Source: Panopea generosa (taxonomy: Eukaryota > Mollusca > Bivalvia > Adapedonta > Hiatellidae). From it: a stretch of 64,000 bases of DNA. The position numbers and the translations under genes were made by a program. Below, in pieces: positions 12,701-57,140 of this stretch. Below the pieces are notes generated by a model. That model was not told the origin of the DNA. It saw only the letters and a program-made list of their open reading frames with translations, and did no database searches. The stretch spans positions 50,673,818 through 50,737,817 of the forward strand of contig CM055909.1 in the NCBI GenBank assembly GCA_029582155.1, read 5' to 3'. Within the stretch, counting starts at the first letter, position 1, and every line of letters starts with the position of its first letter.

Positions 12701-12704
12701 AAAT

Positions 12705-12874
12705 CATTTTTTCGAAGCTGATTCAAGTGTGAAAGTTATCAGTTACATGCGGAGACGGGAGTGCTCGAGTATTGGTTAACCTGCCATGATCCTGGCAAAT
12801 ATATGTTGTTTAACTGATCGTCTGTTAGCTCTTGACGACATAAATGTGAAGCTAAATATTCAATCAATCAATCA
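12705..12874 (+). mobile_element. SINE family A, headless duplicate
   Basis: This is the 3' part of SINE A only, starting mid-body because the duplication breakpoint lies inside the SINE. It appears identical to 4196-4364. Confidence 0.85.
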
Positions 12875-12946
12875 CTGCGAACTGCAAAACTATTGTTTCG
12901 CAAATCGCACGATTCTAAGGATTATTCACTTAATGAGAGTCATCAA

Positions 12947-13220
12947 CCCAGGTGTCGTCTAGTGGAAGAGCGTCCGTCTCGCATGCAGCAAGTCGTGGGT
13001 TCAATCCCCGGCTGGTTCTTACCGAAGACTAAAGGACAGCTCTATGTCTGATTGGCCCGGTGGTAGTATATTGTGACTGGATGGGGTATATTATACCATG
13101 TGTCTACGGCATGATACTCTAGTGTGGCAGCGCTCAGAATATTGTCTCAGGTAGACACCGTCACGATACGACAGATAAAAGTCTACGGTTGAAAGCGATG
13201 CTAAGCACCAAACGACAACA
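12947..13220 (+). mobile_element. SINE family B, duplicate
   Basis: Duplicate of the SINE at 4437-4710, carried within the tandem duplication. I see no difference by eye. Confidence 0.85.
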
Positions 13221-13269
13221 GCGATGTTATGTATTTAGAACTGATCAGGCTTGTCAAAGTGGTTTAATA

Positions 13270-16200
13270 TAGAACACTCTTCATACAATCATTGTTCTAT
13301 TATCAATAACAACACTCTTCATACAATCAGCGTTCTATTATCTATAACAACACTCTTCATACAATCAGCGTTCTATTATCTATAACAACACTCTTCATAG
13401 TATCAGCACTCTATTATCTGTAACAACACTCTTCATACAATCAATGTTCTATTATCTATAACAACACTTTTCATAGAATCAGCGTTCTATTATCTATAAC
13501 AACACTCTTCATACAATCAGTGTTCTATTATCTATAACAACACCCTTCATAGAATCAGCGTTCTATTATCTATAACAACACTCTTCATACAATCAGTGTT
13601 CTATTGTCTATAACAACACTCTTCATAGAATCAGCGTTCTATTATCTATAAAAACAGACTTCATAGAAACAGCGTTCTATTATCTACAACAATACATTTC
13701 ATAGAATCAGCGTTCAACTTTCTACAAAAATACACTCGATAGATTCAGTGTTCAGTTATCTAAAACAATACACTGCATGAAGTCAGTGTTCAATACACTT
13801 CATAGAGTCAGTGTTCAATTATCTACAACAATACACTTCATAGAGTAAGTGTTCAACTATCTAAAACAATACATTTCATAGAATCAGTGTTCAATTATCT
13901 AAAAGAATACACTGCACAGAGTCATTGCTCAATAATCTACAAAAATACACTGCATAGATTCAGTGTTCAAATATCTACAACAATACACTACATAAAATCA
14001 GTGTTCTCTAATCTATAACAACACACTTCATAGTGTAAGTATTCAATTATCTAAAAACAATACACTTCATAGAATCAGTGTTCAATTATCTACAACAATA
14101 TATTTCATAGAATCAGCGTTCAATTATCTACAACAATACTCTGCTTAGATTCAGCGTTTAATTATATACAACAATACACTGATTAGATTCATCGTTCAAT
14201 TATTTACAACAACACACTTCATAGAATCAGCGTTCATCTATCTACAACAATACACTTCATAGAATAAGCGTTCTATTTTCTAAAACAATACACTGCATAG
14301 ATTCGGTGTTCAATTATCTACAACAAAACACTTCATAGAATCAGTGTTCAATTATCTATAACAATACAATGCATATATTCAGTGTTCAATTATCTACAAC
14401 AATACACTGCATAGAGTCAGTGTTCAATTATCTACAACAAAACACTTCATAAAATCAGCATTCAATTTTCTATAACAATACACTTAATAGAATGAGCTTT
14501 CAATTATCTACAACAAAACACTGCATAGATTCAGTGTTCAATTATCTACAAAATTACACTTCATATATTCAGTGTTCAATTATCTACAACAATACACTGT
14601 ATCGATTCAGCGTTCAATTATCTACAACAATACACTTCATATAATCAGCGTTCAATTATCTACAACAAAACACTTAATAGAATAAGCTTTCAATTATCTA
14701 CAACAATACACTGCATAGAGTGAGTGTTCAATTATCTACAACAATACACTGTATACAGTCAGTGTTCAATTATCTACAACAATACACTTCATAGAATTAG
14801 TGTCCAATAATTACAACAATACACTTCATAAAATAAACGTTCTATTTTCTACAAAAATACACTGCATAGATTCAGTGTTCAATTATCTACAACAATACAC
14901 TATATCGATTCAGCGTTCAATTATCTACAACAATACACTTCATATAATCAGCGTTCAATTATCTACAACAATACACTTAATAGAATAAGCTTTAAATTAT
15001 CTACAACAATAAACTGCATAGAGTCAGTGTTCAATTATCTACAACAATACACTGTATACAGTCAGTGTTCAATTATCTTCATCAACAAACTCCATAGAAT
15101 CAGTGTTCAATTATCTACAACAACACAATTCATATAATCAGCGTTCAACAATCTACAACAATACACTGTATAGATTCAGTGTTCAATTAGCTATAATCTT
15201 ACACTGCCTACAGTCAATGATCAATTAGCTACAACAATACACTGCATAAAATCAGCGTTCAAATATTTACAACAATACACTGCTTAGATTCAGTGTTTAA
15301 TTATCTTCAACAATACACTGCATAGATTTAGTGTTCAAATATCTACAACAATTCACTTCATAGAATCATGTTCAATTATTATAACAATACACTTTATCGA
15401 TTCAACGTTCAATTATCTACAACAATAAACTGTGAAGAGTCAGTGTTTAATTATCTATAACAATACACTGCATAGATTTAGTGTTCAAATATCTACAACA
15501 ATTCACTTCATAGAATCATGTTCAATTATTTACAACAATACACTTTATAGAATCAGCGTTTTATTTTCTACAAAAATACACTGCATCAATTCAGTGTTCA
15601 ATTATCTACAACAATACACTTCATAGAATCAGTGTTCAATTATCTATAACAACACATTTCATAGAATCAGCGTTCAACTATCTACAACAATACACTGAAT
15701 AGATTCAGTTCTCAATTATCTACAATAATACACTACATAGAGTCAGTGTTCAAATATTTACAACACACTGCTTAGATTCAGGGTTCAATTATCTACAACA
15801 ATACACTGCTTAGATTCAGTGTTCAATTATCTACAACAATATAATGCATAGAGTCATTGTTCAATTATCTATAAAAATACACTGCAAAAAGTCAGTGTTC
15901 AATTATCTACAACCATACACTGCATAGAGTCAGTGTTCAATTATCTACAACAATACACTTTATAGAGTATTTGTTCAATTATCTACAACAATACATTTCA
16001 TAGAATCAGCGTTCAATTATCTACGACATTACACTGCATAGATTCAGTGTTCAATTATCTACAACAATACACTTTATAGAGTAAGTGTTCAATTATCTAC
16101 AACAATACACTGCATAGAATCAGTGTTCAATTATCTATAGCAATACACTGCATAGAGTCTGTGTTCAATTATCTCCAACAATACATTTCATAGAGTCAGT

Positions 16201-19200
16201 CTTTTATTATCTTCAACAATACACTTCATCGATTCAACGTTCAATTATCTACAGCAATAAACTGTGTATAGTCAGTGTTCAAATATCTACAACAATACTC
16301 TGCATCGATTCAGCGTTCAATGATCTACAACAATGCACTGCGTAGAGTCAATTTTCAATTGTCTACACCAATACACTGTATAGAGGCAGCGTTCAATTAT
16401 CTACAACAATACACTTCATCGATTCAGCGTTCAATTATCTACAACAATAAACAGAGTAGAGCCAGTGTTCAATTATATACAACAATACACTGCATAGATT
16501 CAGTGTTCAAATATCTACAATAATACACTGCATCGATTCAGCGTTCAATTATCTACAACAATACACTGCGTAGAGTCAGTGTTTAATTATCTACAACAAT
16601 AAACTGCATAGATTCAGTATTCAATTATCTACAACAATACATTTTATAGAATCAGTGTTCAATTATTTACAACAACACACTTCATAGAATCAACGTTCAA
16701 CTATCTACAACACTACACTGCATAGATTCAGTGTTTAATTATCTACAACAATACACTGCTTAGATTCAGTGTTCAATTCTCTACAACAATACACTGCATA
16801 GAGTCAGTGTTCAATTATCTACAACCATACACTGCATAATGTCAGTGTTCAATTATCTATACCAATACACTTGACAGAGTCAGTGTTCAATTATCTACAA
16901 CAATACATTGCATAGATTCAGTGATCAATTATCTACAACCATACACTGCATAGAGTCAGTGTTGAATTATCTACAACAATACACTTCATAGATTCAGTGA
17001 TCAATTATCTACAACAATACACTTCATATAGTAAGTGCTCAATTATCTACAACAATACACTGCATAGAGTCAGTGTTCAATTATCTACAACCATACACTG
17101 CATAGAGTCAGTGTTCAATTATCTACAACAATACACTGCATAGAGTCAGTGTTTAATTATCTTCAACAATAAACTTCATCGAATCAGCGTTCAATTATCT
17201 ACAGCAATAAACTGTGTATAGTCAGTGTTCAATTATCTCAAACAATACACTGCATATATTCAGAGTTCAAATATTTACAACAATACTCTGCATCGATTCA
17301 GCGTTCAATGATCTACAACAATGCACTGCGTAAAGTCAGTTTTCAATTATCTACACCAATACACTTCATAGACTCAGCTTTCAATTATCTACAACAATAC
17401 ACTTCATCGATTCAGCGTTCAATTATCTACAGCAATACACTGCATCGATTCAGCGTTCAGTGATCTACAACAATACACTGCGTAAAGTCAGTGTTCAATT
17501 ATATACAACAATACAATGCATAGATTCAGTTTTTAATTATATACAACAATACATTTCATAGAATCAGTGTTCAATTATTGACAACAACACACTTCATAGA
17601 ATCCGCGTTCAACTATCTACAACACTACACTGCATAGATTCAGTGTTTAATTATCTACAACAATACATTGCTTAGATTCAGTGTTCAATTATTTACAACA
17701 ACACACTTCAAAGAATCAGCGTTCAACTATCTACAACACTACACTGCATAGATTCAGTGTTTAATTATCTGCAACAATACATTGCTTAGATTCAGTGTTC
17801 AATTCTCTACAACAATACACTGCATAGAGTCAGTGTTCAATTATCTACAACCATACACTGCATAATGTCAGTGTTCAATTATCTATACCAATAAACTTAA
17901 TAGAGTCAGTGTTCAATTATCTACAACAAAACACTTCATAGATTCAGTATTCAATCATCTACAATAATACACTGCATAGAGTCAGTGTTCAATCATCTAA
18001 AATAATACACTGCATAAAATCAGCGTTCAAATATTTACAACAATACACTGCTTAAATTCAGTGTTTAATTATCTACAACAATACACAGCTTAGATTCAGT
18101 GTTAAATTATATACAACAATACATTTCATAGAGTCAGTGTTCAGTTATCTACAACAATACACTGGATAATGTCAGTGTTAAATTATCTACAACAATACAC
18201 TTGATAGAGTCAGTGTTCAATTATCTACAACAATACAATTCATAGAATCAGCGTTCAATTATCTACAACAATACATTGCAGAGATTCAGTGTTCAATTAT
18301 CTACAACAATATACTTCATATAGTAAGTGCTCAATTATCTACAACAATACACTACATAGAGTCAGTGTTCAATTATCTACAACAATATACTGCATAGATT
18401 CAGCGTTCAATTATCTACAACGATACACTTCAAAGATTCAGCGGTCAATTATCCTCAACAATACATTGCATAGATTCAGTGTTCAAATATCTACAACAAT
18501 ACACTTCATACAGTAAGTGTTCAATTATCTATAACAATAGACTGCATAGAGTTAGTGTTCAATTATCTACAACAATACACTGCATAGAGTCAGTGTTCAA
18601 TTAACTACATCAATACACTTCATTGAGTCAGTGTTTAATTATCTTCAACAATACACTTCATAGAATAAGCGTTCAATTATCTACAACAATACAATGCATC
18701 GATTCAGCGTTCAATTATCTACAACAATACACTGCACAGAGTCAGTGTTCAATTATCTACAACAGTGCACTGCATATATTTTCAGTGTTCAATTATCTAC
18801 TACAGTACACTTCATAGAATCATTGTTCAATTATCTATAACAATACACTTCATAGAATAAGCGTTCTATTTTTACAACAATACACTGCATAGATTCAGTG
18901 TTCAATTATTTACAACAATACACTTCATAAAATCAGTGTTCAATGATTTACAACAACACACTTCATAGAATCATCGTCCAGCTATCTACCACAATACACT
19001 GCATAGATTCAGTGTTCAATTTTCTACAATACACTGCATAGAGTCAGTGTTCAATTATCTACAAAAATACACAGCATAGAGTCCGTGTTCAATTATCTAC
19101 AACAATACACTGCTTAGATTATCTGTTCTATTATCTACAACAATACTCTTCATAATGTCAGTGTTCAATTATCTACAACAAAACACTGCTTAGATTCAGT

Positions 19201-21779
19201 GTTCTATTATCTACAACAATACACTTCATAGTGTCAGTGTTCAATTATCTACAACAATACACTGCATAGAGTCAGTGTTCAGTTATCTACAATAATACAC
19301 TTCATAGATTAAATGTTCAATTATCTACAACAATACACTTCATAGAATCAGCGTTCAATCATCTACAACAATTCACTGCATAGAGTCAGTGTTCAATTAT
19401 CTACAACAGCACACTTCATAGAGTAAGTGTTCAATTGTCTACAACAATATACTGCATAGAGTCAGTGTTCAATTATCTACAACAATACACTGCATAGATT
19501 CATTTTTCAATTAACTACAACAAAACACTTGATAGAGTCAGTGTTTAATTATATACAACAGCACCCTTCATAAAATCAGCGTTCAACTATCGAAAACAAT
19601 ACACTGCATGAATTCAATGTTCATTTGTCTACAAGAATACACTGCATAGAGTCAGTGCTCAATTATCTACAACAATACAATGCATAGAGTCAGTGTTCAA
19701 TTATCGTCAACAACACACTTCATAAAGTAAGTGTTTAATTATCTACAACAATACACAGCTTAGGTTTAGTTTTTAATGATATACAAAAATACACTGCTTA
19801 GATTCAGTGTTAAATTATCTACAACAATACACTTCATAAAGTCAGTGTTCAGTTATATACAACCATACACTGCATAATGTTAGTGTTCAATTATCTACAA
19901 CAATAGACTGCATAGAATCAGTGTTCAATTATCTACAATAATACACTTCATAGAGTAAGTGTTCAATTATCTACAACAATACACTTCATCAAATAAGCGT
20001 TCAATTATATACAATAATACACTGCATAGATTCAGTGTTCAATTATCCTCAACAACACACTGCATCGATTCAGCGTTCAATTATCAAAAACAATACACTG
20101 CTTAGATTCAGTACTTAAATATCTACAAAAATACACTGCATAAAGTCAGTGTTCTATTATCTACAACAATACACTTCATAGAGTAAACGTTCAATTATCT
20201 ACAAAATACACTTCATAGAATCAGTGTTTAATTTTCTACAACAATACACTGTATAGACTCAGTGCTCAATTATCTACCACAATACACTTCATAGAGTAAG
20301 CGTTCAATTAGCTACAACAATACTCGGCATACAGTAAGTGTTCAATTATCTACAACAATATACTGCATTGATTCAGCGTTCAATTATCTACAACAATACA
20401 CTTCATAGAATCAGTGTTCAATTATCTACAACAATATACTGCATAGAGTCAGTGTTTAATTATCTACAACAATTCACTTCATAGAATAAGCGTTCAGTTA
20501 TCTACAACAATACACTGCATAGATTCAGCGGTCAATTATCCTCAACAATACACTGCATAGATTCAGTGTTCAATTACCTACAACAATACATTGCATAGAG
20601 TCATTATTCAATTAACTACAACAATACACTTCATAGAGTCAGTGTTTAATTATCGTCAACAATACACTTCATAGAATAAGCGTTCAATTATCTACAACAA
20701 TACAATCCATCGATTCAGCGTTCAATTATCTAAAACAATACACTACGTAGAGTCAGTGTTCAATTATCTACAACAATATACTGCATCGATTCAGCGTTCA
20801 ATTATCTACAACAATACACTGCACAGATTCAGTGTTCAGTTATCTACAACAATGCATTGCATAGATTCAGTGTTCAATTATCTACAACAATACACTTCAT
20901 AGAATCATTGTTCAATTATCTTCAACAAAACACTTCATAGAATAAGCTTTCTATTTTCTACAACAATACACTGCATAGATTTAATTTACAATTATTTACA
21001 ACAATACACTTCATAAAATAATTGTTCAATTATCTACAACAACACACTTCATAGAATCAGCGTTCAACTATTTACAACAATACACTGCATAGAGTAAATG
21101 TTCAATTATCTATAACAACAGACTTCATAGAGTCAGTGTTCAATTATCTACAACAATACACTGCATAAAGTCATTATTCAATTAACTACAACAATACACT
21201 TCATAGAGTCAGTGTTTAATTATCGTCAACAATACACTTCATAGAATAAGCGTTCAATCATCTACAACAATACAATCCATCGATTCAGCGTTCAATTATC
21301 TACAACAATACACTACGTAGAGTCAGTGTTCAATTATCTACAACAATCCACTGCATCGATTCAGCGTTCAATTATCTACAACAATACACTGCACAGAGTC
21401 AGTGTTCAATTATCTACAACAATGCATTGCATAGATTCAGTGTTCAATTATCTACAACAAAACACTTCATAAAATAATTGTTCAATTATCTACAACAAAA
21501 CACTTCATAGAATAAGCGTTCTATTTTCTACAACAATACACTGCATAGATTTAGTTTATAATTATTTACAACAATACACTTCATAAAATAAGTGTTCAAT
21601 TATCTACAACAACACACTTCATAGAATCAGCGTTCAACTGTTTACAACAATACACTGCATAGAGAGAGTGTTCAATTATCTACAACAATACACTGCATAG
21701 AATCAGCGGTCAATTATCTACATTAATACCCAGCATGGAGTCCGTGTTCAATTATCTACAACAACACACTTCATAAAAT
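13270..21779. repeat. 38-bp satellite array, block 2
   Basis: Same satellite as block 1 and, for most of its length, the same order of variant units. The leading TTCTATTATC subfamily is shorter here (to about 13675) than in block 1. Confidence 0.95.
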
Positions 21780-23876
21780 AAGCGTTCAATTATCTACAAC
21801 AATACACTGCTTAGATTAAGTGTTCTATTATCTACAACAATACACTTCAAAGTGTCAGTGTCCAATTATCTACAACAATATCCTGCATAGTGTCAGTGTT
21901 CAATTATCTACAACAATACGCTTCATAGAATAAGCGTTCAATTATCTACAACGATACACTGCATAGATTCAGCGGTCAATTATCCTCAACTATATACTGC
22001 ATAGATTCAGTGTTCAATTATCTACAACAATACACTTCATAGAGTAAGTGTTTAATTATCTATAACAGCACTCTGCATAGTGTCTGTATTCAATTATCTA
22101 CAACAATACACTGCATAGAATCAGTGTTCAATTAACTACAACAATACACTTCATAGAGTCAGTGTTTAATTATCTTCAACAATACACTTCATAGAAGAAT
22201 AAGCTTTCAATTATCTACAACAATACACTCCATCGATTCATCGTTCAATTATCTACAACAATACACTATGTAGAGTCAGTGTTCAATTATCTACAACAAT
22301 GCACTGCATAGATTCAGTGTTCAATTATCTACCACAATACATTTCATAGAATATGCGTTCTATTTTCTACAACAATACACTGCATAGATTCAGTGTTCAA
22401 TTATTTACAACAATACACTTCATAAAATCAGTGTTCAATGATCTACAACAACTCACTTCATAGAATTAGCGTTCACCTATCTACAACAATACACTGCATA
22501 AGTTCAGTGTTCAATTTTCTACATCAGTACACTGCATAGAGTCAGTGTTTAATTATCTACAATAATACACAGCATAGAGTCCGTGTTCAATTATCTACAA
22601 CAATACACTTCATAAATTAAGTGTTCATTCATCTACAACAATACACTGCTTAGATTCAGTGTTCTATTTTCTACAACAATACACTTCGTAGAGTCAGTGT
22701 TCAATTATCTACAACAATACACTTCATAGAGTAAGTGTTCAATTATCTACAATAAAACACTTCATAGAATCAGTGTTCAATTATCTACAACAATACACTG
22801 CTTAAATTCAGTGTTTAGTTATCTACAACAATACACTGCTTATAATCAGTGTTCAATTATCTACAACAATACACTTCATATAGTAAGTGTTCAATTTTCT
22901 ACAACAATACACTTCATAGAGTCAGTGTTCAATCATCTAAAACAATATACTGCATAGAGTTAGTGTCTAATTATCTACAACAATACACTGCATAGATTCA
23001 GTGTTCAATTATCTACAACAATACACTTCATTGAATCAGCGTTCACTTATCTACAACAATACACTTCATCGATTCAGCGTTCAATGAACTACAACAAAAC
23101 ACTGCATAAATTTAGTGTTCAATTATCTGCAAGAATACACTGCATAGAGTCAGTGTTCAATTATCTATAACAATACACTGCTTAGATTCAGTGTTCATTT
23201 ATCTACAACAATACACTGCATAGAGTCAGTGTTCAATTATCTACAACAATATACTGCATCGATTCAGCGTTCAATTATCTACAATAATACACTTCATAGA
23301 ATCAGTGTTCAATTATCTACAATAATACACTTCATAGAATCAGTGGTCAATTATCTACAACAATACACTTCATTGAATCAGCGTTCACTTATCTACAACA
23401 ATACACTTCATCGATTCAGCGTTCAATGAACTACAACAAATCACTGCATAAATTTAGTGTTCAATTATCTACAAGAATACACTGCTTAGAGTCAGTGTTC
23501 AATTATCTACAACAATACACTGCTTAGATTCAGTGTTCATTTATCTACAACAATACACTGCATAGAGTCAGTGTTCAATAATTATCTACAACAATATACT
23601 GCATCGATTCAGCGTTTAATTATCTACAATAATACACTTCATAGAATCAGTGTTCAATTATCTACAATAATACACTGCTTTAATTCAGTGTTTAGTTATC
23701 TACAACAATACACTGCTTATAATCAGTGGTCAATTATCTACAACAATACACTTCATAGAGTAAGTGTTCAATTTTCTACAACAATACACTTCATTGAGTC
23801 AGCGTTCAATTATCTACAACAATATACTTCATAGAATCAGCGTTCAATTATCTACAACACACTTCACAGAATCAGG
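21780..23876. repeat. 38-bp satellite array, unduplicated tail
   Basis: The satellite continues past the duplication without the SINE cassette. Internal duplications are visible: a block around 23030-23330 recurs around 23380-23660. The array decays at CACTTCACAGAATCAGGTG. Confidence 0.93.
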
Positions 23877-24042: not shown

Positions 24043-25036
24043 TTTCGGGTGGCATATATTAATTGTAGTGTCCGTTCGTCCGTCCGTGCTTCCGTCCGGT
24101 ATTTTGTGTCCAGCCTGTAATTTTGTTATAAATAGATGGATTTTGTTAATACTTGCTACAAATGATCAACATAAGATGACGACGTGTTGCGAGTTAGACA
24201 TACACCCGTACCTCAAAGATAAAGGTCACATTTTGAATTTGCTTGACAACACTTTGAATCTGTGTGAGATTTCGTTTCCGGCCTGCAATTTGTAATGCAT
24301 AAATCGATTTTATAAATACTTGCTAAAAATGATCAACATAACATGATGACGTGTCGTACATAACACCCAGTTTCCCGCTTCAAAGGTCAAAGTCACAATT
24401 TTACTATGTTTGACGACACTTTCAGTTTGATTCAGATTTCGTGTCCGGTCTGTAACTTTGTTACCTATGGATAAATTTCAAAAGCACATGGTACAATTCA
24501 TCAGCAAGACATGACGGCGTGCCGCGCGTAAGACCCACACCAATACCTAAAATGTTAAGGTCACATTTTGGGTTTGTTTAACAACACTTTCAGTGTGTTT
24601 GAGATTTTATATCCGTCCTGTAACTTTATCATAAATATATGGATTTCAAAAACAATTTATCAGTTGATCAACATGACATGACGATGTGTCGTGTTAAGAC
24701 CCAGAACTTTACAGTTTGTTTGACATTTCATGTCTGGTGTGTAACTTTGTCCTAAAATAGCTTGAAACAAGTGATCAACATGTCTTGATGATTTGTCACC
24801 TGCATTTTCCTGTTAAAATACGCAGACCTTTTCTTCAGATGTCAAGGTTATACAAAGGTCAAGGTCACACTTTAATGTAAAAAACAACAACATGAAATTG
24901 CATGTCTAGTTTGAAACTTTAGTCCATTACTCTTGATATTCATGGATACATCGCTGCTTATTATAAAATATATTATTATTTTCATAGACCATTTGGGAGC
25001 ATGTGCCACTTACCAGTGACAGTTCTTGTTTCAAAA
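24043..25036 (+). repeat. Dispersed repeat with about 170-bp tandem units, copy 1
   Basis: It opens with GGGTGGCATATATTAATTGT and a (TCCG)n-like run. About five diverged units follow, each with 'GTCTGTAACTTTGT', 'GATCAACATGACATGACG' and 'AAAGGTCAAGGTCACA'. It closes with TTTCATAGACCATTTGGG and CCACTTACCAGTGACAG. The same start, unit and closing words recur at 31440-32680. No protein is encoded. I know such words only as common bivalve repeats and cannot assign a superfamily. Confidence 0.7.
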
Positions 25037-28031: not shown

Positions 28032-31000
28032 GTATTTATTTTTTAGGTATTTTATTTCTTCATCAACATATATAACATGACATAGTGTGTATATACATCA
28101 TTATACGATTACAGGCATATTACTACTATCGGGTAAAAGGAAGTGCTTTCGTGGGGTAGTCGCATAATGGCGGTTATAAATAATCCTTGTTTCTTCTTCT
28201 TTAAAAATGCATTTTCCTTATTTCAATGCTCATGTTTTTATTTGAATAGCATTATTGATGTATTGATGAGCAAAAAAAATACTTATGTGACACATGACTC
28301 CTACTTTTCTCATCATATTTTGGTAGTACAGAGGTTGACAAACAGTAAAATGTAAGTTTCATTTCTTTCATTTGTGTCTCTCTATGAATGACAAGCCTTC
28401 AATTTTTTATTATTTACTATAAAATAAAGAACAAAACATCAATGGCGGGGTTACACCTACAGACAAAAGGTCGTGGCCGCCAGTTCTCAAACATCCATCC
28501 CACATTATAGCCTGAATTATATTAGTCTACATATTACTTTGCATAGAATTGTAGGTCAAAGCTTATGGTCAGTGTTTCCTCCGACCACGAAAAAGTAGAA
28601 ACATAAGTAGTGCTCCTTTATATTATTATTCATAGAAAAATGCATTAAATTTTAAACAATTCCTAAATTATTTTTAAACATTTGGCAATCATTTTGAATT
28701 GTCTTTACAAGTTCATGTTTGTTTAAGAGATGTTCCAGATAAAAAATAAAGATATCGTATACAAAACATAATGAAGATGAAGACATGATGTCAACATAAT
28801 TTACGTCTCTATTATTCATTTTTCGGAATCTGAGCCAATGAATAGTAGTTCACAGTTTCCAATTTGCACAGACTTCCTACTATATGATGAAGACTACAAT
28901 TGTTTTGAGCTCAGGGGGAAAGGTGTGTGTGTTGTTTTTTTGTTGTTTTTTTTTGGGGGGGGGGGGGGGGAGGGGGGGATAAGGCAATGTCAATGCGGCC
29001 CAAGTTATGTAAAGGAACTATTATAAAAATGCATTGACCATTATCATTTAAAGAAATATACACAACTTTTTTATTGGAATTTTCCAATTTTACATTAATC
29101 GTTTTAACTATACTGATTTAAAGAACGTGTATTATGTGTAAACAATTTATCAGATTATTGTTTTCTTTTGTTTTTTGGTTGTGGGAGCAGTAGGGATGTG
29201 CTATTTATATACGGGTTAGTTGCTAGGCGGCGCCTGCAATAGTGTGCAGGCGCTTTTTGACGCTTGACGCGTTTTGTCAGCAACGCTTTTTATCCGCAGA
29301 AAAAAAAATCGTTAACTTTTGTCCGCATGACGACATTTATCCGCAGAAAATTTGGAAAAAATGACGCCTTTTGTCCGAATGACGCCTTTTGTCCGTTGAA
29401 ATAATAAAAAAATGACGCCTTTTGTCTGCATGACGCCTTTTATCCGCAGAAAATTTATAAAAACGTCGGCTTTTGTCCGTACATGGATCATGACGCCTTT
29501 TGTCCGCAGAAAGTTTAGAAAAATGACGCTTGACGCGTTTTGTCAGCAACGCTTTTTATCCGCAGAAAAAAAAATCGTTAACTTTTGTCCGCATGACGAC
29601 ATTTATCCGCAGAAAATTTGGAAAAAATGACGCCTTTTGTCCGAATGACGCCTTTTGTCCGTTGAAAAAATAAAAAAAATGACGCCTTTTGTCTGCATGA
29701 CGCCTTTTATCCGCAGAAAATTTAGAAAAACGTCGACTTTTGTCCGTACATGGATCATGACGCCTTTTGTCCGCAGAAAGTTTAGAAAAATGACGCCTTT
29801 TGTCCGCATGAAGCCTTTTGTCCGGAGAAACATTTCAAAAACGTCGACTTTTGTCCGCATGACAACTTCTATCCAATTGTTGTAGTACAGTTTTATTTTA
29901 AAAATGTTTGGGTTACAGTGAGGCAGGGTAGACTGCGTAAAGTGAATCACGGGGTAAGTAGGAACAAGGACAGTAACTGATATTTAGTAATAGTCCTATT
30001 TAATCCATTTGACGAAGAATAGATAGGCACCATCATTATAAGTGATCAACAAATATTGGAATGGTGGCAGATGAAGAGTGATAACGATATTTATTAAGAA
30101 AAAATAGTTTTCATTTTGTCAATAGTGTTTTCATCGTTTTAGCTGTGCAAGCGTTTAGTATCAATTATATGGAATACAGTTATCTTTAATTTTAGTTTAC
30201 ACGAATTAAATATGCACATCTGCAAGATAATATATATTTTGTTTAATCTAATGTCACAGATAATTTGTGGTCGAGGCAAGTTAGAGCAAAGTGATGGAGG
30301 CATGTTGTAACAGCATTTCAACTCAGTGAATATACTCCATTTATTTTTTGCATATTCATGTAATGAACTTAAACAGTTTTAGATGTATTTCAATCGTAAG
30401 CACGTTATATACATGTATAAAAATTATACATGTTCTAAGCGCATGTTCAAGTTCAAGCGACCAATAGTGAATGCATTTTATTTAAAACATTCTGAAGGAC
30501 AGATGGAAGATGTACATATTAAGACATATTTCAAAAGAGATCGTGCTTTTATTTTAGCAATTTTACGGCTTTTATTGGTGGTTGTAAATGTAAAATTAAA
30601 AATACAAGCAGTTAGAAGTTAGTTTCATATTCTTTTCATATTTAAAGGAGAAACTCTTCAAATTGGAAGTTATAGTTAGGGTAGGGTTAGTGTTAGGTTC
30701 ATGATGAATATCGAATATCAAATATGAATATCAAACTAACTTAACTCTACTGGGGAAAAAACACACTATATTATCTTCAGATCGTCAGTTTCTGGATGAC
30801 CATGGGATTTATTTACAAAATAAAAGGATTATAAGTATATGAAAAAGGTATAGATTTAACTTGGATATATGTCAATAAAAAATATAAACACTTTTCTCCT
30901 CAATAACGTTAGTCTCTCCATAGCAACTAGTTTCCTTTAATAATTTCCAGACTTTTAAGTTCATTATTCCCTTTGCACTTACTCGTATAATATTTCTGAT

Positions 31001-34000
31001 TGACTTGATATGGACGTAAATTGACTGCTTTGTGGTCCTTGTTTTAATTTTTCATGAACTTTTTTATGCTTAATTTAAAAAATATATATTTCCTTTAAGT
31101 GTTTGTTTAATAATTTGAAGAAATGTTTTTTAAATATTTTAGAATAATCGAGAGCGCTCTCCTTCCGACAGCTTTTTTTTTACATTTTCCTCTGTTTCGT
31201 TTATTTATGTATAACAGATAATTTGGTAATTTTTGCTATTTGTTTCCATAGTGAGATCACGGGGGGTTGACATGTGTACAAAGTTTCGTGAAGTTACTTT
31301 GGTCGGTTTTAGAGTTATGACCCGGAAGCTGCAAATCTTATAACTGTGGCTATTTGTTTCCATGGTAACAACTCCCTCAAGTTACTTTGAATGGTTTTGT
31401 AGCTGCACTCCGAAAACGGAAAATTTTGTAATTATGCCCTTGAGCTATCGTGTCCGGTTTGTAACTTTGTCATGCAAAGATAAATTTTGCTAATACTTGC
31501 TACAAATGATCAACATAAAATGAAGCGCATTACAACGAGACTCCCACTTCAAAGGTCAAAGTCACAATTTAACTTTGTTTGATGACACTTTCAGTTTAAT
31601 TGAGATTTCGTGTCCGGTCTGTAACTTTTCACCTATGGATTAATTTCAAAAGCACTTGGCTCAATTCATCAGCATGACATGATGACGTGTCACATGTAAG
31701 ACCCACATGCGTACCTCAAAGGTCAAGGTCACACTTTGATAACACTTTGAATCTGTGTGAAATTTCGTGTCCTGTCTGTAACTTTGGCATAAATAGATGG
31801 ATTTTATAAATACTTGCTACAAATAATCAACATAACATGACGACGTGTACCGTGCAACAACCAGACTCCCACTTCAAACATCAAGGTCACAACTTTGTTT
31901 GACAACACTTTCGGTCTGTTTGAGATTCTGTGTCTAGTCTGTAACTTTGTCACCTATGGATAAATTTAAAAAAAACACTTGGCCCAGTTGATCAACATGG
32001 CATAATAAGTGTCGCATGTAAGACCAAGAACCTTTCCTCAAATGTCAAGGTCACACTTTCAATTTGTTTGATATTGCGTGTCTGGTCTGTAACTTTGTCT
32101 TTAACTTTGCTCAATTGATCAAGATAACATGACGACGTGTCTTACGTAAGACCTAGACCCGTACCTCAAAGGTCAAGGTCACACTTTGAGTTTGTATGAC
32201 ATCCTCCTGTTACTTTATCAGACATGGATGGAATTCAAAAATACTTGGCTCTGTTTATCAATTGATCAACATGACATGACGACGTGTTACGTTAAGACCC
32301 AACTCTTACCTCAAGGTCACACTTTCAGTTTGTTTGATATTTCATATCTGGTCTGTAAATTTGTCTTACATGAAGGGATTTTAAAATAGCTTCACACAAG
32401 TGATCAGCACATCATCATGATGTGTCAGCTGTATTTACCTGTAGAAATACCTAGACCTTTACATCAGATGTCAAGGTTACGCAACGGTCAAGGTCATGCT
32501 TTAATGTTAAAAAACATGAAATTGCGGGTCTAGTCTGAAACGTCAGTCCATTACTCTTGATATTCATGGATACATCGCTACCTATTATAACATATATTTT
32601 TATTTTCATAGACCATTTGGGGGAGGGGGATGGCATGCGACACTTACCAGTGACATTTCTTGTTTTTATTACTATTTGTTTTAACTTTGTAACAGGAAAA
32701 TATGTTGAAAATGAAAACTCCCTTATAGCAAAAGGCACTACTTCAACCAAAGGTTACAAAGTTTCGTGATGTTATCTTAAACGGTTTAAGAGTTGTGCTC
32801 CGGAAACGGTGAATTTTGTCATTTTGGCTATTTGTTTCATGGTAACAGAAAAAAAAATGTTGACAATAAAAACTCCCTCATAGCAAAACGCACTACTAGG
32901 CCTCCAGGTTGACATATGTACAAAGTTTAGTGAAGTTACCATGAATGACTTTGTAGTTGTACTCCGGAAACATAAGATTTTATAATTTGGCTATTTGTTT
33001 TCATAGCAACAGAAAAAATATTGAAAATTTACTCCCTCATAGCAATTGTATCCTAAGCTAAATTCTGAAATGTTTCGTCATTCGTTTGCTCAACAAGGCT
33101 CTTGTTTGTGGAACTCTATTCCATCATATATAAAAAATGCAAATTATACAAATTAGTTTATATTTATATAGTGGGGGGCTCAAGGAAAATTTATTTCGAA
33201 TGAGTTCTCTCGTTCATAAAAGTCTTTATATTACTATTATTGTTATTATTACTGTTGTTGTTTTTTATTACATAAAGCACTTCTAGACCTACTTTCTGAC
33301 ATGTGAACAACGTTAAGTAAAGTTACCTTGAGAAAATTTGGAGTTGTACTCCGGAATTGCTTTCGGACACACAGACGCACGCACGGAGGTGCCCAGTTTA
33401 ATATTCCCCGCAAAATTGCGTTTAGATCAAACGAGATTACGATGTTTGAAATATGCATGTCCGCTGAAAATCACATATGAATAATTTCTTTGGCTGATAT
33501 TTACCCATGATCTTCGACGCTTGCTAAAGACAAACGACGTTGTGAATATGATCAAGACTATGAGAATCTAAAAATATAATTACACCGCTTATGTCGTCTG
33601 GCTATCAATCAAGGGGTCGTGAGTTCGAATTCTCGCCTGGCAATAGTCTCCGCAAAGATTGATATACAGCATTACGTCTCAGTATCGTTTGTCTCTCGCC
33701 GCTGATTTTAGTGAGAATGTTATCAGACACTTGCGGAGATGGGTATTTTCGAGTAATGATCGTCTGTTAGCCATTAATGACATACAATTGCGCTTTATAT
33801 TCAAACAAACAAGATAAAGTGCACCGATGGCGATCCACTTTTAAAACATTTATAAAAACGCTTATTTGTTACAAGTCAAACGGAAGGATATGAAAATTCT
33901 CTCCAAAGACATTTGCTAAGTTCAATGATGCGATGAAATTTTATTTCGTAATATTAATTGTTTAACTTTAGACACCGATTGCGATTTACTGTGGAGGAAA

Positions 34001-37000
34001 CCAGGACAAGTCGGAATGAAAATTGCATTTGTCACAATGTATACATATTTGTTTTACATACATTCACGTATTATACGCACATCATAAATATCTGGCTTCT
34101 CTTGTCATTTAAGTTTAAAGATTTTATACTAATATAATTGGTTGTTTCACAAACTGACACAAATTGCGAACTGAAATGTTCCAGTTTGCCCAAGCATTGG
34201 GGATAGTTGGAACATCGTTTGTTTTGTAGTAAATTATAACCCAAATTAAATTTAAAAAAAGATCTGAGACTATCAAACAGCATATTATTCAAACAGATTT
34301 TACACAAAACATTTTAAGATTGTGACCAGCATGTTACATTCTAACATATACCTGAAGTAAATTTTACTTTATCCACGAAAATGTTAGACACTTTACAGCA
34401 GATAAATAAGGTTCATTCGTGTTCGCTCCTTAGCTCCCACGTGACTGGAAGGGTTTTTATACAGCTAGGCACAAAAGGTTGGTGTTTTTTTACAAATATC
34501 TGAACTATAAAGGTATGTTACAACTGTCACAGTGTTAGTTTGGGATAAATATCGAATACTACATGTTGGTGTAAGAGTCCACACAATATGAAAAAAGCTC
34601 TCTCTTATGTATATAAAATGAGAATTATAATTCAGATTTATTATTCGATTTGGCCAGTTCTAGAACTCGTCTGAGATATTATGGTTGTATAACAACTGTA
34701 TATGTTTGGTTAAGGTCAAGAGAAAAAAATGCGAGTGTTAAGGTGCACATAATTCGGAAAATACTTTGAATACCAATATAATATTAAAACAAGACCAATA
34801 GACCGTTCGGTCAGTTCAAGAATTTGTCCGAGATCAGTCCCAGTTAAGTAAATATCACGTGAAAAATATGGTTGCTAGAGCTGCACATAAGGCCAGATAG
34901 GGCAATATATGACAATTCAAGGGCCGTAAACCATACATAAATGATTTAATTTGGCCAGTTCAAGAATGTGTATGAAATATAATCATTATCAAATGAATAT
35001 TGCGCAAATTATCTGTGACATTAGATTGAACAAAATATATATTCACTTGCAGGCATGCAGATTTAATTCGTGTATACTCAATTTAAAGATAACTGTATTC
35101 CATATAATTGATACCAAACGCTTGTACAGCTAAAACAGTGAAAACACTATTGACAAAACGAAAACTATTTATTCTTAATAAAACCGTTAGCACTCTTCAT
35201 CTGCCACCATTCCAATATTTGTTGATCACTGGTAATGATGGTGCCTATCTATTCTTCGTCAAATGGATTAAATAGGAGTATTTCTATATATCAGTTACTG
35301 TCCTTGTTCCTACTTACCCCGTTTTTCACTTCACGCGGTTTACCCTGCCCCACTGTAACCCAAACGTTCTTAAAATGAAACTGTACTACAACAATCGGAT
35401 AGAAGATGTCATGCGGACAAAAGTCGACGCTTTTCTGATTTTTCTGCGGACAAAAGGCGTCATTCGGACAAAAGGCGTCATTTTTTAAAACTTTCTGCGG
35501 ACAAAAGGCGTCATTTTTCTAAATTTTCTGCGGATAAAAGGCGTCATTTTTTATGAGAACAAAAGGCGTCATGCGGATAAAAGGCGTCATTTTTCTAAAT
35601 TTTCTGCGGATAAAAGGCGTCATGCGGACAAAAGTCGACGTTTTTCTATTCTTTCTTCGGATAAAATGCGTTGCGGACAAAAAGCGTCAAGCGGACAAAA
35701 AGCGCATGCACAAATAGTAAATATATTTGACCGATGTTATAGTTAGAATTCGAAGTTTAATAGTGCATTCAATATTTGTGACAAAGATTTGTGAGATTGG
35801 TGTTCACATTCATTACGTCACTAATTTAAATCCGACCGATTTTGTTAGTTATATAGGTTTAATGCGCTCATAAAGATAAACTTATTTCTTTATTTCGATT
35901 GTGAAACAAGTTATTACAAATCATACTGGAAGCTAATTGCATTGATTGTATCTTATTTCAAATTCCCATCAACGTCATGTAAATATTTTAAATAAAGATA
36001 AATATTTCTAAATACATGTAGTATTATAAGTTCATGAATTTTAACTAACAATTAGACATCGCCCTGAACCATTCTTCGTACTGGAATTGTTGTTGATCAT
36101 GACAGGTTTTCTACAAGAGACGGCAGTATATCTTTGATTCACCACTTATTTAAAAACAAATTGAGTGTTCGAATTTATTTTCAGAGGAGAAACATTTCAT
36201 TTCGGCACTCCTGAGTTGTCTCAGCAAAAGTTCGATATAAAATGTTATAATGAAAACAAAGCCAGAGTTCATTAGTTGGGACACATGTCAGTGTATAAGC
36301 GCCCTCTAGTGGCGCACAAATTTCAAACAAAATTGAGTCTGCTGGATAATGAGAATATTCTTGACAAGTGTGTTTATCTTACAGCGCTTATCGGGGGCGT
36401 GAACGCTTTGAAATGTTACAAATGTGACTCCAGGCAACACAGTGATGTCTGCAGCCAGGACTTCAAGCTGACGTCATTGAATACAACGTACATCACTGAT
36501 GGGTGTGATAGCTGCCTTCGAACCGAAATTAAAAATATGAACGGTACGTTATACATAACACAATAAATAGTATCAGTGATATACATTACACAATAAATAT
36601 ATCACTATGTTACACAATAAATATGTTATATATTACACAAAAAATATGTTATATATAACACAATAAATATGTTATATTTTACACAATAGATATCACCAGT
36701 GTTATACATTACACAATAAATATGTTACTTTATCACATAACAAATATGTTATATTATACAATAAATGTGTTATATTATTACACAAGAAATTAATTATATA
36801 TTACACAATAAATATGTTATATGTTACAAAATAAATATGTTATATATTATTTAATGAATATATTATATGTTACAAAAGAAATATGTTATATATTACACAA
36901 TAAACAAGTTATATATTACACAAGCAATATGTTATATATTTATTTAACAAGAAATATGTAATATGTTACACAAATAATATGTTGTATATTACGCAAGAAA

Positions 37001-38474
37001 TATGTTATATGTTACACAAGAAATATGTTATATATAACACAATAAACAAGTTATATATTACAAAAGAAATATGTTGTATATTTATTTAACAATAAATATG
37101 TAATATGTTACTTGAATAATATGTTGTATATTACACAAGGAATATGTTGTATATTGCATAAAAATGTGTTATATGTTGAACAATTTAACGCAGGGCGGTA
37201 GTCTAATGGATAGAGTGTTGGCCGCTCACGCCAGAGGTTGCAGGTTCGATCCTCCGATGCCCCTCATAAAACAACACTCAGTACTGGTTCTACCAAGGAA
37301 GCAGACTACAGAGCGGTGCATATAAGCTCTGAGCTTTCATCGCAATCGAGCTATAATACATTAGTAAAAACTAAGCACTTCCTTTCTCCAATGGTGGAAC
37401 TATGCCTCAAAACATGTTGTATATAACTAGACGTATACTATATCCTGAATCCTGTTTAACCAACATTTTCTCAGTTCATTGGTTCTCCTTGGCAGAGATT
37501 ATGGGACCACCATCCGATGGCCACTTACTTCTCTCTGTGAGAAAGCTTGCCAGTTACTTGCAAAAGGACGTTGGTTCTATTTGGATTCATTCTGAGGTCT
37601 TCTTCGTCCAATAATACTGGATATGACTTATAGTCTGTGGTGTTTTGTTTAAAATTTAAACGTGGGACCGTTATTTTTAGTTGGATCTTAATCAAATTTG
37701 ATTAAAGCGTATTATAGATGTATACACCAGTGTACCTCATCATCATTGGTCTCCCACCGATCGTTCATTGGGGGAAATAATCAGATACTTGCTGAGATGG
37801 GGTGTGCTCGGGTACTCTGGTAAGCCTGATATAGTCATTAGGTAAACTGATCGTCTGTTAGCGATCGATGGCATAACAATGACGCTAATATTCAAACAAA
37901 CAGTAAACTTTGAGTTATTGCCCTTGCATTGTTGACAAAATTCCGTTTTATGCACAAAGGCGTTTGCAAACGTTGAGTTCAATAAAAACTAAATGTACTG
38001 AGAAAATTTGGAGTTATTACTTTAACAACATTTTGTAACTTAACTGTCAGTCTTTCTTTAGATTAGGCTAATTAATTATATAAAAATAACACAAAACTTT
38101 TTTTAAATATCTGTTTATACTTTGAAATGTGTCTTTGACTGTGAATATGTATATAATTATGTGAAATGTGTCTTTGACTGTGAATATGTATAAAATTATG
38201 TAAAATGTGTCTTTGACTATGAATATGTATGTGCTTTAAGTGCCAAGCAGTTTTTATTCTTTCTTTATTTACAGTTTTTATCCGGAACTGCACGTTGAGA
38301 ACAAAAACTTCTTTCAGTTTCAAACTCGGCTGCGAGAAAGGAATGGAAGACGGTCACGTGACAGAGACATGCGCGTGCAACAAGGACCTGTGTAACGGAG
38401 CACGAACTGAACTGACTGCTTTTTCAATGATCATATTTACGTTATTCATCGTGTATGTTTTATCTTCAGCATGA
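27983..38474 (+). CDS. Ly6/uPAR three-finger GPI-anchored protein (3 exons)
   Basis: Joining 27983-28031, 36385-36543 and 38275-38474 gives 408 nt, 135 residues plus stop. All junctions are GT-AG and all phases match (phase 1 at both introns). Residues 1-24 form a signal peptide ending VNA. The mature protein starts LKCYKC and has ten cysteines (27, 30, 39, 57, 60, 75, 89, 102, 104, 109), the full Ly6 set, closing with the family signature CACNKDLCNG. Asn49 and Asn74 are in N-x-T sites. Residues 116-135 are hydrophobic after NGA, fitting GPI-anchor addition near Asn110. Family members sit on the outer cell surface as small ligand- or receptor-modulating proteins; the partner cannot be told from sequence. 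Intron 1 (8.35 kb) holds a foldback element, and intron 2 (1.7 kb) is repeat-rich. Exons 2 and 3 are very secure. Exon 1 is inferred from phase and signal peptide. Confidence 0.85.
28032..29242. other. Ly6-like gene intron 1, 5' part
   Basis: AT-rich intron with no gene seen. A poly-G tract of about 16 G followed by AGGGGGGG lies at about 28955-28978. Confidence 0.6.
29243..29875. repeat. Left-arm minisatellite of the foldback element
   Basis: Alternating 'TGACGCCTTTTGTCCGCA' and A-rich spacers. A segment starting at 29261 recurs at 29527, a 266-bp internal duplication absent from the right arm. Open frames on both strands here arise from the repeat. Confidence 0.9.
30265..31200. other. Foldback interior, no gene recognised
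   Basis: AT-rich unique sequence. Short frames such as 30383-30622 show no domain. Confidence 0.5.
31220..31440 (+). repeat. Dispersed repeat, 'tacaaagtttcgtgaagttac' type
   Basis: Units of the form GGCTATTTGTTTCCATGGTA, ACAAAGTTTCGTGAAGTTAC, GAGTTATGACCCGGAAGC. Related units recur at 32720-33460. These often adjoin the 170-bp repeat in this window. Confidence 0.6.
31440..32680 (+). repeat. Dispersed repeat with about 170-bp tandem units, copy 2
   Basis: Same family as 24043-25036 with more units (about seven). It carries six 'TCAAGGTCA' words and ends with the same TTTCATAGACCATTTGGG and CACTTACCAGTGACA. It lies inside the foldback element. Confidence 0.7.
32720..33460 (+). repeat. Dispersed repeat, 'gttgtactccggaaac' units
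   Basis: Several diverged units with ACAAAGTTTAGTGAAGTTAC and TTGTACTCCGGAAAC. The last ends in CGGACACACAGACGCACGCA, a simple-sequence-like terminus. No coding potential. Confidence 0.6.
33586..33812 (+). mobile_element. SINE family A, copy in the foldback interior
   Basis: Head with B box GTGAGTTCGAATTCTCGCC, body GAATGTTATCAGACACTTGC and ATGATCGTCTGTTAGCC, tail CAAACAAACAA. It is nested in the foldback element and therefore younger than that insertion, unless it was carried in with the element. Confidence 0.72.
33813..35021. other. Foldback interior, no gene recognised
   Basis: AT-rich DNA. 'GGCCAGTTCAAGAA' words recur at about 34650, 34810 and 34950 with neighbouring similarity (FGxxQF-like frames are not sustained), suggesting old tandem copies of about 150 bp. 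Confidence 0.4.
35385..35712. repeat. Right-arm minisatellite of the foldback element
   Basis: Reverse complement of the left-arm repeat (GCGGACAAAAGGCGTCA with A/T spacers), about half as long. Confidence 0.9.
35718..36384. other. Ly6-like gene intron 1, 3' part
   Basis: Unique AT-rich intron ending in TGTTTATCTTACAG, a good splice acceptor. Confidence 0.6.
36385..36543 (+). CDS. Ly6-like gene, exon 2
   Basis: The acceptor TTATCTTACAG precedes the exon. It codes for residues 17-69: the end of the signal peptide, LKCYKCDSRQ, a VCSQDF segment and GCDSCLRTEI. It ends G|GTACGT in phase 1. Confidence 0.92.
36550..37180. repeat. AT-rich minisatellite in intron 2
   Basis: About 28 diverged units of roughly 22 bp built on 'ATGTTATATATTACACAATA'. 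No open frame. Confidence 0.88.
37191..37370 (+). mobile_element. SINE family C, copy 2
   Basis: The head GGGCGGTAGTCTAATGGATA and B box GCAGGTTCGATCC are nearly identical to 26299-26432. It continues with ACTGGTTCTACCAAGGAAGC and ends TTCATCGCAATCGAGCTATA. It lies in intron 2. Confidence 0.72.
37540..37620 (+). mobile_element. SINE family F fragment
   Basis: TGCCAGTTACTTGCAAAAGG and GGATTCATTCTGAGGTCTT match the body of the SINE at 63241-63490. The head is missing. Confidence 0.5.
37735..37902 (+). mobile_element. SINE family A, truncated copy
   Basis: Body words AATCAGATACTTGCTGAGATG, ACTGATCGTCTGTTAGCGAT and a TTCAAACAAACA tail. The tRNA head is absent or unrecognisable. Confidence 0.65.
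38125..38240. repeat. 39-bp repeat, three copies, just before exon 3
   Basis: AAATGTGTCTTTGACTGTG starts at 38125, 38164 and 38203 (period 39 bp). The last unit runs up to the polypyrimidine tract of the exon 3 acceptor. Confidence 0.85.
38275..38474 (+). CDS. Ly6-like gene, exon 3 (last)
   Basis: The acceptor TTCTTTATTTACAG precedes the exon. It codes for residues 70-135: five Cys including CACNKDLCNG, then the hydrophobic tail FSMIIFTLFIVYVLSSA and TGA at 38472-38474. Confidence 0.93.
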
Positions 38475-47689: not shown

Positions 47690-50600
47690 CCACCCCACTT
47701 TAAAAAACCTTAAGAAATAACATTTCTAGGGGTCATACATCTACATATATCACATTTATAAAACAATGAGAACAGTGGCTATTTCAGGGTCACATATTTA
47801 CATATATCACATTTATAAAACAAGGAGGATAGGGACTATTCAAATGTCACATATCTACATATATCACATCTTTAAAACAAGAACGATAGTGGCTATTTAA
47901 GGGTCACATATCTACATATATCACATGTATAAAACAAGGAGGATAGTGGCTTTTTAACGGTCATACATCTACATATATCACATGCATAAAACAATGAGGA
48001 TAGGGTCTATTTTAGAGTCACATATTTACATATATCACATCTATAAAACAAGGAGGATAATGGCTATTTAAGAGTCACATATCTACATATCTCACATGTA
48101 TACGAAAAGAAGGATAGTGTCTATTTAAGGGTCACATATTTACATATATCACATCTATAAAACAAGGAAGACAGTGGCTATTTAAAGGTCACACATCTCC
48201 ATATATCGCATGTATAAAACAAGGAGGAAGTTGGCTATTTAAGGGTCACACATTTACATACATGTATATCACATGTATAAAACAAGAAGGTTAGTTGCTA
48301 TGTAAGGGTCGTACATCTACATATATCATATTTATAAAACAATGAGGATAGGGTCTATTTAAGGGTCACATATTTACATATATCACATCTATAAAGCTAG
48401 GAGAAAGTTGGCTTTTTAAGGGTCACACATCTACATATATCACATGTATAAAACAAAAAGGTTAGTGGCTATTTAAGGGTCAAACATCTACATTTATCAC
48501 ATTTATAACACAAGGTGGATAGTGACTATTAAAGATCACACATCTAAAAATAGCATATTCATAATACAAGGAGGATAATGGCTATTTAAGGGTCACACAT
48601 CCACAAATATCACATCTATAATATAAGGAGGATAGTGGCAATTTAAGGGTCACACAAATTCATATATCACATCTATAAAACAAGCAAGATAGTGACAATT
48701 TAAGGGTCACACATCTATATATATATCCCATTTATAATACAAAGAGATTAGTTGCTAATAAAGGGTAACTACTCTACAAATATCAAATCTATAAAAGAAG
48801 AATGATAGTGACTATTAAAGAGTCACTTATCTACATATATCACATTTATAAAACAAGGAGAATAGTGGCTATTTAAAGGTCACTTATCTACATATATCAC
48901 ATTTATCAAACAAGAAGGACACAGGCTATTTAAAGGTCACTTATCTACATATATGACATTTATCAAACAAGAATGATAGTGTCCATTTAAGAGTCACTTA
49001 TCTATCTATATCACATTTATAAAACAAGGAGGATAATGGCTTTTTAAAGGTCACTTATCTACATATATCACATTTATCAAACAAGAAGGACAGTGGCCAG
49101 TTAATAGTCACACATCTACATATATCACATTTATAAAACAAGGAGGATAATGGTTATTTAAAGGTCATTTATCTACATATATCACATTTATAAAACAAGG
49201 AGGATAATGGCTTTTTAAAGGTCACTTATCTACATATATCACATTTATCAAACAAGAAGGACAGTGGCCATTTAATAGTCACACATCTACATATATCACA
49301 TTTATAAAACAAGGAGGATAATGGTTATTTAAAGGTCATTTATCTACATATATCACATTTATAAAATAAGGAGGATAATGGCTTTTTAAAGGTCACTTAT
49401 CTACATATATCACATTTATAAAACAAGGAGGATAGTGGCTGTTTATGGGTCCCACATCTACATATATCACATTTATAAAACAAGGAGGATAGTGTATTTT
49501 TAAGGGTCATACATCTATATATATCACATCTATAAAACAAGAAGTATAATGGCTATTTAAGTGTCACACATCGACTTATATCACATTCATAAAACAAGAT
49601 GGATAACGGCTTTTTAAGGGTCAGACATCTACATATATCACATCTATAAAACAAGACGGATAACGGCCATTTACGGGTCAGACATTTACATATATCACAT
49701 CTATAAAACAAGAAGGACAATGGCTATTTAAGGGTCACACATCTACATATATCACATTTATAAAACAAGGAGGATAATGGCTATTTAAAGGTCACACATC
49801 TACATATATCACATTTTAATACAAGGAGGATAGTTGCTATTTAATAGTCACACATCTACATATATCACATTTATAAAACAAGAAGGATAATGGCTATTTA
49901 AGGGTCAGACATTTACATATATCACATTTTAATACAAGGAGGATAGTTGCTATTTAATAGTCACACATCTACATATATCACATTTATAAAACAAGGAGGA
50001 TAGTGGCTGTTTATGGGTTCCACATCTACATATATCACATTTATAAAACAAGGAGGATAGTGTATTTTTAAGGGTCATACATCTATATATATCACATCTA
50101 TAAAACAAGAAGTATAATGGCTATTTAAGTGTCACACATCGACTTATATCACATTCATAAAACAAGATGGATAACGGCTTTTTAAGGGTCAGACATCTAC
50201 ATATATCACATCTATAAAACAAGACGGATAACGGCCATTTACGGGTCAGACATTTACATATATCACATCTATAAAACAAGAAGGACAATGGCTATTTAAG
50301 GGTCACACATCTACATATATCACATTTATAAAACAAGGAGGATAATGGCTATTTAAAGGTCACACATCTACATATATCACATTTTAATACAAGGAGGATA
50401 GTTGCTATTTAATAGTCACACATCTACATATATCACATTTATAAAACAAGAAGGATAATGGCTATTTAAGGGTCAGACATTTACATATATCACATTTTAA
50501 TACAAGGAGGATAGTTGCTATTTAATAGTCACACATCTACATATATCACATTTATAAAACAAGGTGGAAAGTGACAATTTAAGAGTCACACATCTATATA

Positions 50601-56600: not shown

Positions 56601-57140
56601 ATTTATAAAACAAGGTGGCTTTTGGCTGTTTAAGGGTCACACATCTACATATATTACATTTATAAAACAAGGTGGATATTGGCTGTTTAAGGGTCACACA
56701 TCTACATATATCACATTTATAAAAAAGGTGGATATTGGCTATTTCAGGGTCACACATCTACATATATCACATTTATAAAACAAGGTGGATATTGGCTGTT
56801 TAAGGGTCACACATCTACATATATTACATTTATAAAACAAGGTCGATAGAGGCTGTTTAAGAGTCACACATCTACATATATCACATTTATAAAACAAGGT
56901 GGATATTGGCTATTTCAGGGTCACACATTTACATATATCACATTTATAAAACAAGGTGGATATTGGCTGTTTAAGGGTCACACATCTACATATATCACAT
57001 TTATAAAACAAGGTGGATATTGGCTGTTTAAGGGTCACACATCTACATATATCACATTTATAAAACAAGGGGGATAGTGGCTGTTTAAGGGTCACACATC
57101 TACATATACCACATTTATAAAACAAGGTGGATATTGGCTA
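47690..57140. repeat. 57-bp minisatellite, about 165 copies (9.4 kb)
   Basis: The unit is TATTTAAGGGTCACACATCT, ACATATATCACATTTATAAA, ACAAGGAGGATAGTGGC (57 bp). Nested larger duplications are visible: a 568-bp block at 49441 recurs at 50009, a block at 50737 recurs at 53080 and 53903, and one near 51914 recurs at 55370 (offset 3456). The last kilobase (about 56250-57140) is the most homogeneous. Because 57 is a multiple of three, minus-strand frames remain open with a 19-residue Cys-rich period; they lack any gene context. It lies in the presumed intron of the SLC1 gene. Confidence 0.96.

Follow-up and report, generated by a model that had tools for sequence, protein, structure and literature searches.

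Positions 29243–35712 of a 64,000-nucleotide stretch of the genome of the bivalve Panopea generosa (assembly GCA_029582155.1, contig CM055909.1, positions 50,673,818 to 50,737,817 of the forward strand; hereafter the window) hold an element that is very probably one copy of a family of non-autonomous cut-and-paste DNA transposons, with copies of ~6–8 kb and long inverted ends. An original prediction, made from the letters of the window alone, had proposed a foldback-type element here, with inverted arms each consisting of an outer minisatellite and an inner unique segment, and this inverted-repeat structure is real. The arms are ~91% complementary: 29757–30091 pairs with 35180–35514 over 335 nt at 91%, and 30090–30267 pairs with 35005–35182 over 178 nt at 91%, alongside numerous cross-matches between the minisatellites. 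In the outer part of each arm an 18-bp unit like TGACGCCTTTTGTCCGCA forms an array, with successive motif matches spaced at 18 or 33/34 bp in 11 of 20 intervals in the left arm and nine of 11 in the right, where the array begins 10 bp inside the tip. The left arm is longer than the right because of a 266-bp tandem duplication (Table 1), and is likewise longer than in most relatives, 20 of 39 other arm matches starting at query base 285. Long and internally repetitive, these inverted arms are those of a foldback-type element.

The same ends recur throughout the genome, which was searched as 1.47 Gb in 39 contigs (numbered here with the prefix C, and individual loci with L). A 29-bp tip pattern has 370 matches at no more than three mismatches (179 plus, 191 minus), 100 of which were listed individually, and its reversed control has none; the copies with shared ends that the original prediction called for are thus present. 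With the left arm as query, 626 first-look candidates yielded 40 scored matches, including the window; with internal segment 2, 6269 candidates yielded 40 scored (68 match rows, including the window). Of the 39 arm matches besides the window, 20 were read within 10-kb stretches (L009–L028); the inner arm segment, armA, is present in all 20, which were themselves selected by arm match. Both ends were identified in the window and in eight of these loci, lying 6.1–8.1 kb apart, and dispersed copies carry terminal inverted repeats (TIRs) at both ends, as class II elements do. In fuller copies the arms reach ~1.4 kb (minisatellite, armA and a further segment, armB) and are followed by internal segment 1, a tandem array of longer units and internal segment 2. 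ArmB stands on both sides in such copies (e.g. L010, L014, L018 and L028); the window copy lacks it on the right, and the resulting direct joint between internal segment 2 and armA is common to L027 and the slice L070. Tips start with TG (some with TA, an apparent point change) and finish with CA, and the fifth base is C in 24 of 26, the exceptions being the right tips of L010 (TGTGA) and L026 (out of register).

The insertions are bounded by a target-site duplication (TSD) of constant length, 6 bp, as in TIR transposons. Both ends were available for 21 copies: the window, the eight loci read, a 13.5-kb copy on C1, a copy of a second family (L031, described below) and ten pairs with both ends listed. 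The 6-bp duplication is exact in nine and at least 5/6 identical in 15, compared with a mean of 0.68 exact cases, and a maximum of four, across 500 re-pairings of the flanks. No copy has an exact match at lengths of 3, 4, 7, 8 or 9, and a single one, the window, has it at length 5; L104, outside the 21, has an exact TACGCT duplication. The AATAG that had been proposed to flank the element does stand at both window ends as a direct repeat, but the duplication of the family is one base longer; fitting the 5-bp register alone, the window presumably carries a decayed CAATAG from which one C has been lost on the right. Counting one flank per insertion, and leaving out L024, which duplicates L023, 14 of 18 targets have CG at their centre and 17 have CG, TG or CA, against a background of 3% for CG; the first figure becomes 12 of 16 when L015, L017 and L020, which have a flank in common, are counted once. 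The target is a CG-centred palindrome with a wider consensus of roughly G-YACGTR-C.

Empty sites of a sister copy agree with the ends originally proposed. Nine copies were tested against the sequence read for this analysis, and spanning matches were found for L014 alone. This copy interrupts a tRNA-like short interspersed nuclear element (SINE), and its joined flanks, minus one duplication, align uninterrupted to SINEs in L009, in L027 and at two points of the window (~4.4 and ~12.9 kb, with identical scores). For the window insertion itself no empty allele came to light. Mean armA identity is 92% (28 sequences of at least 350 nt), and of six copies possessing both arms, five have a left armA that resembles an arm elsewhere in the family more closely than the right armA of the same copy; the arms are therefore mostly inherited as separate ends. 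Some copies have evidently spread by segmental duplication, since L015, L017 and L020 have ~1.48 kb of flank in common at 90–98% identity. The tip at C5:81600854 lies within the same duplicated segment (L055 vs L017, 98%), and the coordinates C5:81600702-81600854 suggest a possible mini-element of ~150 bp made of two tips only. The listed tips of the L017 copy in this segment are 10.7 kb apart.

Table 1. Parts of the foldback-like element in the window (window positions)
Feature	Position	Size or strand	Remarks
Whole element	29243-35712	6470 bp	very probably a non-autonomous, foldback-like DNA transposon copy
Left target-site duplication, CAATAG	29237-29242		left flank; duplications in the family measure 6 bp
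Left arm, outer minisatellite domain (18-bp unit like TGACGCCTTTTGTCCGCA)	29243-29874	+	terminus TGTGCAGGCGC at 29243; 21 motif matches; inverted partner
266-bp tandem duplication in left outer domain	29258-29796	+	Tandem Repeats Finder: 2.0 copies, 98%
Left arm, inner unique segment (armA)	29875-30267	+	pairs with inverted 35005-35395 at 91.8% identity
Further arm segment (armB)	30268-30870	+	no inverted partner in window copy
Internal segment 1	30871-31440		collinear in L010, L012, L017, L018, L028 among others
Internal array of longer tandem repeats	31441-33305		from tandem-repeat and copy comparison
Internal segment 2	33400-35002		by eye, contains a tRNA-SINE-like stretch around 33580-33760
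Right arm, inner unique segment	35005-35395	-	inverted pairing with left armA
Right arm, outer minisatellite domain	35396-35712	-	terminus GCGCATGCACA at 35712; 12 motif matches; exact terminal match C16:50709501-50709529
Right target-site duplication, presumed remnant AATAG	35713-35717		5/5 identical to left flank

A separate array at 24101–24691, with a 168-bp unit, resembles by eye the tandem unit of 31441–33305, placing this module outside the window copy as well. It is also worth stating that a tip does not by itself identify the family, and the notion that every tip belongs to it was rejected. Forty tips, chosen from the 100 listed as having no listed partner, were sampled 300–1000 bp inside: 20 led into armA, one into armB only, eight into other pieces, of family, L031-type or minisatellite sequence, and 11 into no family sequence (L055, L067, L069, L072, L073, L077, L082, L083, L085, L086 and L089), L055 being the flank common to L017.

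The window copy contains no transposase, as originally predicted. The longest stop-free frame in 29201–35750 has 126 codons and lies inside minisatellite, and nine stop-free pieces of 59–100 codons from 30268–35004 (where 47 pieces reach at least 40 codons) have no Pfam match. Beyond the window, the scans covered selected open reading frames (ORFs) in or beside copies, the longest paired copies not among them; these ORFs are retroelement genes, encode an OTU domain or have no relevant Pfam match. Among them, no P-type (THAP) transposase was matched and no integrase was found outside nested retroelements. Large ORFs in or beside L019, L021 and L024 were rejected as transposase candidates, their domains being reverse transcriptase, RNase H, integrase zinc-binding, aspartyl protease or zinc-knuckle (those of L021 may lie beside the copy, not within it), and the 13.5-kb C1 pair holds a nested element of the long interspersed nuclear element (LINE) type. 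Pfam scans of the ORFs of L011 and of pieces of the L104 insert returned no informative match, and slices taken 1500–2400 bp inside 12 of the 40 sampled tips held no long ORF except one of 160 codons in L096. This last (L096 420–899, C6:5960540-5961439), ~2 kb inside the tip at C6:5959040, has by eye the look of a cGAS/Mab-21-type nucleotidyltransferase and has no Pfam match; it may be a captured gene or a neighbour.

A second family with nearly the same tips was found in the same genome. L031 (C6:25366806-25371701, 4896 bp) has an exact CACGTA duplication and arms of ~0.3–0.4 kb containing neither armA nor armB, and stretches of its interior are ~69–83% similar to the first family. The L031-type tip pattern has 59 matches at no more than two mismatches, some of the two-mismatch rows being first-family tips, and its control has none. 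L104 (C24:3483020-3492300, element of 9220 bp) is ~93% like L031 with 2.6 kb of extra sequence, and the 18/33-bp motif spacing of the first family is mostly kept in both. The extra sequence of L104 encodes a 333-codon ORF with an OTU domain (PF02338, E 5.5e-8), in which the position we take to be that of the catalytic cysteine appears, by eye, substituted; a search of solved structures gave 0 matches for this ORF. The protein matches ten loci (17 rows), with the full 333-codon frame stop-free in two, C24:3489069 and C11:66370311, between which identity is 100%. All ten lie 2.2–7.2 kb from one of 216 listed family features, against an expectation of 0.017 within 8 kb. Five of the ten are on the small contig C24 (4.3 Mb).

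Overlapping the OTU ORF in another frame is a 108-codon ORF, X, which maps to the same ten loci and to 48 diverged places, and which matched nothing in Pfam at E 10. In L104 the OTU ORF (6050–7048, minus) and X (5779–6102, minus) overlap by 53 bases, and likewise at C11:66370311-66371571; the arrangement may represent a frameshift-type fusion, an inherited frameshift or two genes. Three of the 48 diverged X homologues are within 3 kb of a family feature, where 0.04 would be expected: one inside L011, ~2.5 kb from the tip, one near an internal-segment-2 match on C12, and C4:80817176, which is outside the element of its nearest tip. The other 45 are not within 8 kb of any listed feature, the feature list being partial.

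For a non-autonomous cut-and-paste family, a transposase encoded elsewhere would act in trans. It would probably bind the arrayed 18-bp motif as a set of multiple sites, bring the two ends together and insert them at G-YACGTR-C sites with a 6-bp stagger. The arms give the element its foldback shape, yet are inherited mostly as ordinary, separate left and right ends. In Galileo and Tetris the internal repeats have been proposed as extra transposase binding sites (PMC4168063, PMC4079207), and such sites have been argued to possibly raise transposition (PMC4079207). Probably, the present elements are mobilised by a member of the tip-sharing sister group with the OTU-protease/domain-X gene; that this mobiliser is of integrase type (Ginger/GingerRoot-like) is a guess. 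Several points weigh against the cut-and-paste interpretation and its proposed mechanism. The scanned ORFs yielded no DNA-transposase domain, no excision event was observed, and the motif array is a putative set of binding sites, proposed from sequence. Six of the 21 copies fall below 5/6 identity in the 6-bp register (three at 4/6, one at 3/6, C1:65.3M at 0/6, and the window), and in L022 each arm has the other as its nearest match.

A chance or rearrangement-made inverted duplication that never moved has a negligible probability: whilst segmental duplication does spread L015, L017 and L020, dispersed copies with constant ends, target duplications and empty sites refute it. Very improbable, too, is a Galileo or P-superfamily foldback element. 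The architecture is the same, long TIRs with internal tandem repeats and many defective copies being common to Galileo/Foldback-type elements of Drosophila, to Tetris and to the present family (PMC4168063, PMC4079207). However, Galileo, of the P superfamily, makes 7–8 bp duplications of GTANTAC type (PMC4168063), as opposed to the CG-centred 6 bp found here, and no kinship in sequence was shown; the relationship to Galileo raised in the original prediction is not borne out, and that interpretation as a whole is partly supported. Dada elements have TSDs of 6–7 bp, some with GCG inside, and families in small-RNA genes (PMC3706591), and one copy here stands in a tRNA-like SINE; Dada-U6 and Dada-U1 have no TIRs, unlike the long ones seen here, and by eye the other targets read were not recognised as RNA genes.

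Membership of an integrase-related superfamily, with a Gypsy-integrase-like (Ginger1) or IS3/IS481-like (IS3EU/GingerRoot) transposase and OTU as its companion, is a possible reading, though less likely than not. IS3EU and GingerRoot have 6-bp TSDs, and GingerRoot, which mostly ends in TA..TA, occasionally has the TG..CA ends seen here; the match is to that exception alone, as complete IS3EU families end in TA..TA (PMC10045372). Ginger1 has TG..CA-type ends, a CG-centred target (CCGG/CCGT) and, in several families, OTU or Ulp1 domains beside its integrase (PMC2836005), and OTU occurs here in the sister family. Ginger1 nonetheless differs in its 4-bp TSD (no exact 4-bp case among the 21), in ends of TGTNR as against TGTGC, and in TIRs of 40–270 bp as against ~0.3–1.4 kb. 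No integrase was seen outside nested retroelements in the ORFs scanned, and OTU is also found in Helitrons (PMC2836005). It is unlikely on present evidence that the elements form a DNA-transposon lineage of their own, new or unassigned, in which the OTU plus domain-X protein would be the native gene product and the transposase would still await recognition. Both domains occur at the same ten loci, all near family tips, X resembles nothing in Pfam, and its three near homologues exceed expectation; but C4:80817176 falls outside the nearest element, 45 of the 48 diverged homologues lie beyond 8 kb of any feature in the partial list, X is short, and OTU by itself is unable to transpose DNA.

The element plausibly sits within an intron of a Ly6-type gene, judging from frames to its right. 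An exon-like frame at 36384–36545, reading CYKCDSRQHSDVC..., has no Pfam match, and the frame at 38223–38474 has a weak one (E 0.0022, short of the curated cut-off) to the u-PAR/Ly-6-like family QVR. Two tandem arrays of great length occupy ~45% of the window: 4772–23859 (38-bp unit, ~500 copies) and 47730–57143 (57/114/171-bp unit, 9.4 kb).

No description of this transposon family was met in the parts of the literature searched, PMC5139131 and PMC11136912 among them; Repbase and Dfam were outside that comparison, so 'undescribed' is not proven. It is conceivable, if doubtful, that these elements belong to an undescribed eukaryotic transposon lineage with minisatellite-built ends, CG-centred 6-bp duplications and, in its gene-bearing members, an OTU-protease/domain-X gene; the foldback-like elements would then be its gene-less, long-armed offshoot. 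Foldback structure has been suggested to evolve independently in different transposons (PMC4079207). With short-armed (~0.3–0.4 kb, L031 and L104) and long-armed (~1.4 kb) families having nearly the same tips and target preference within one genome, the growth of such arms can be compared directly, and the CG-centred target together with the link to OTU renders the question of superfamily testable.

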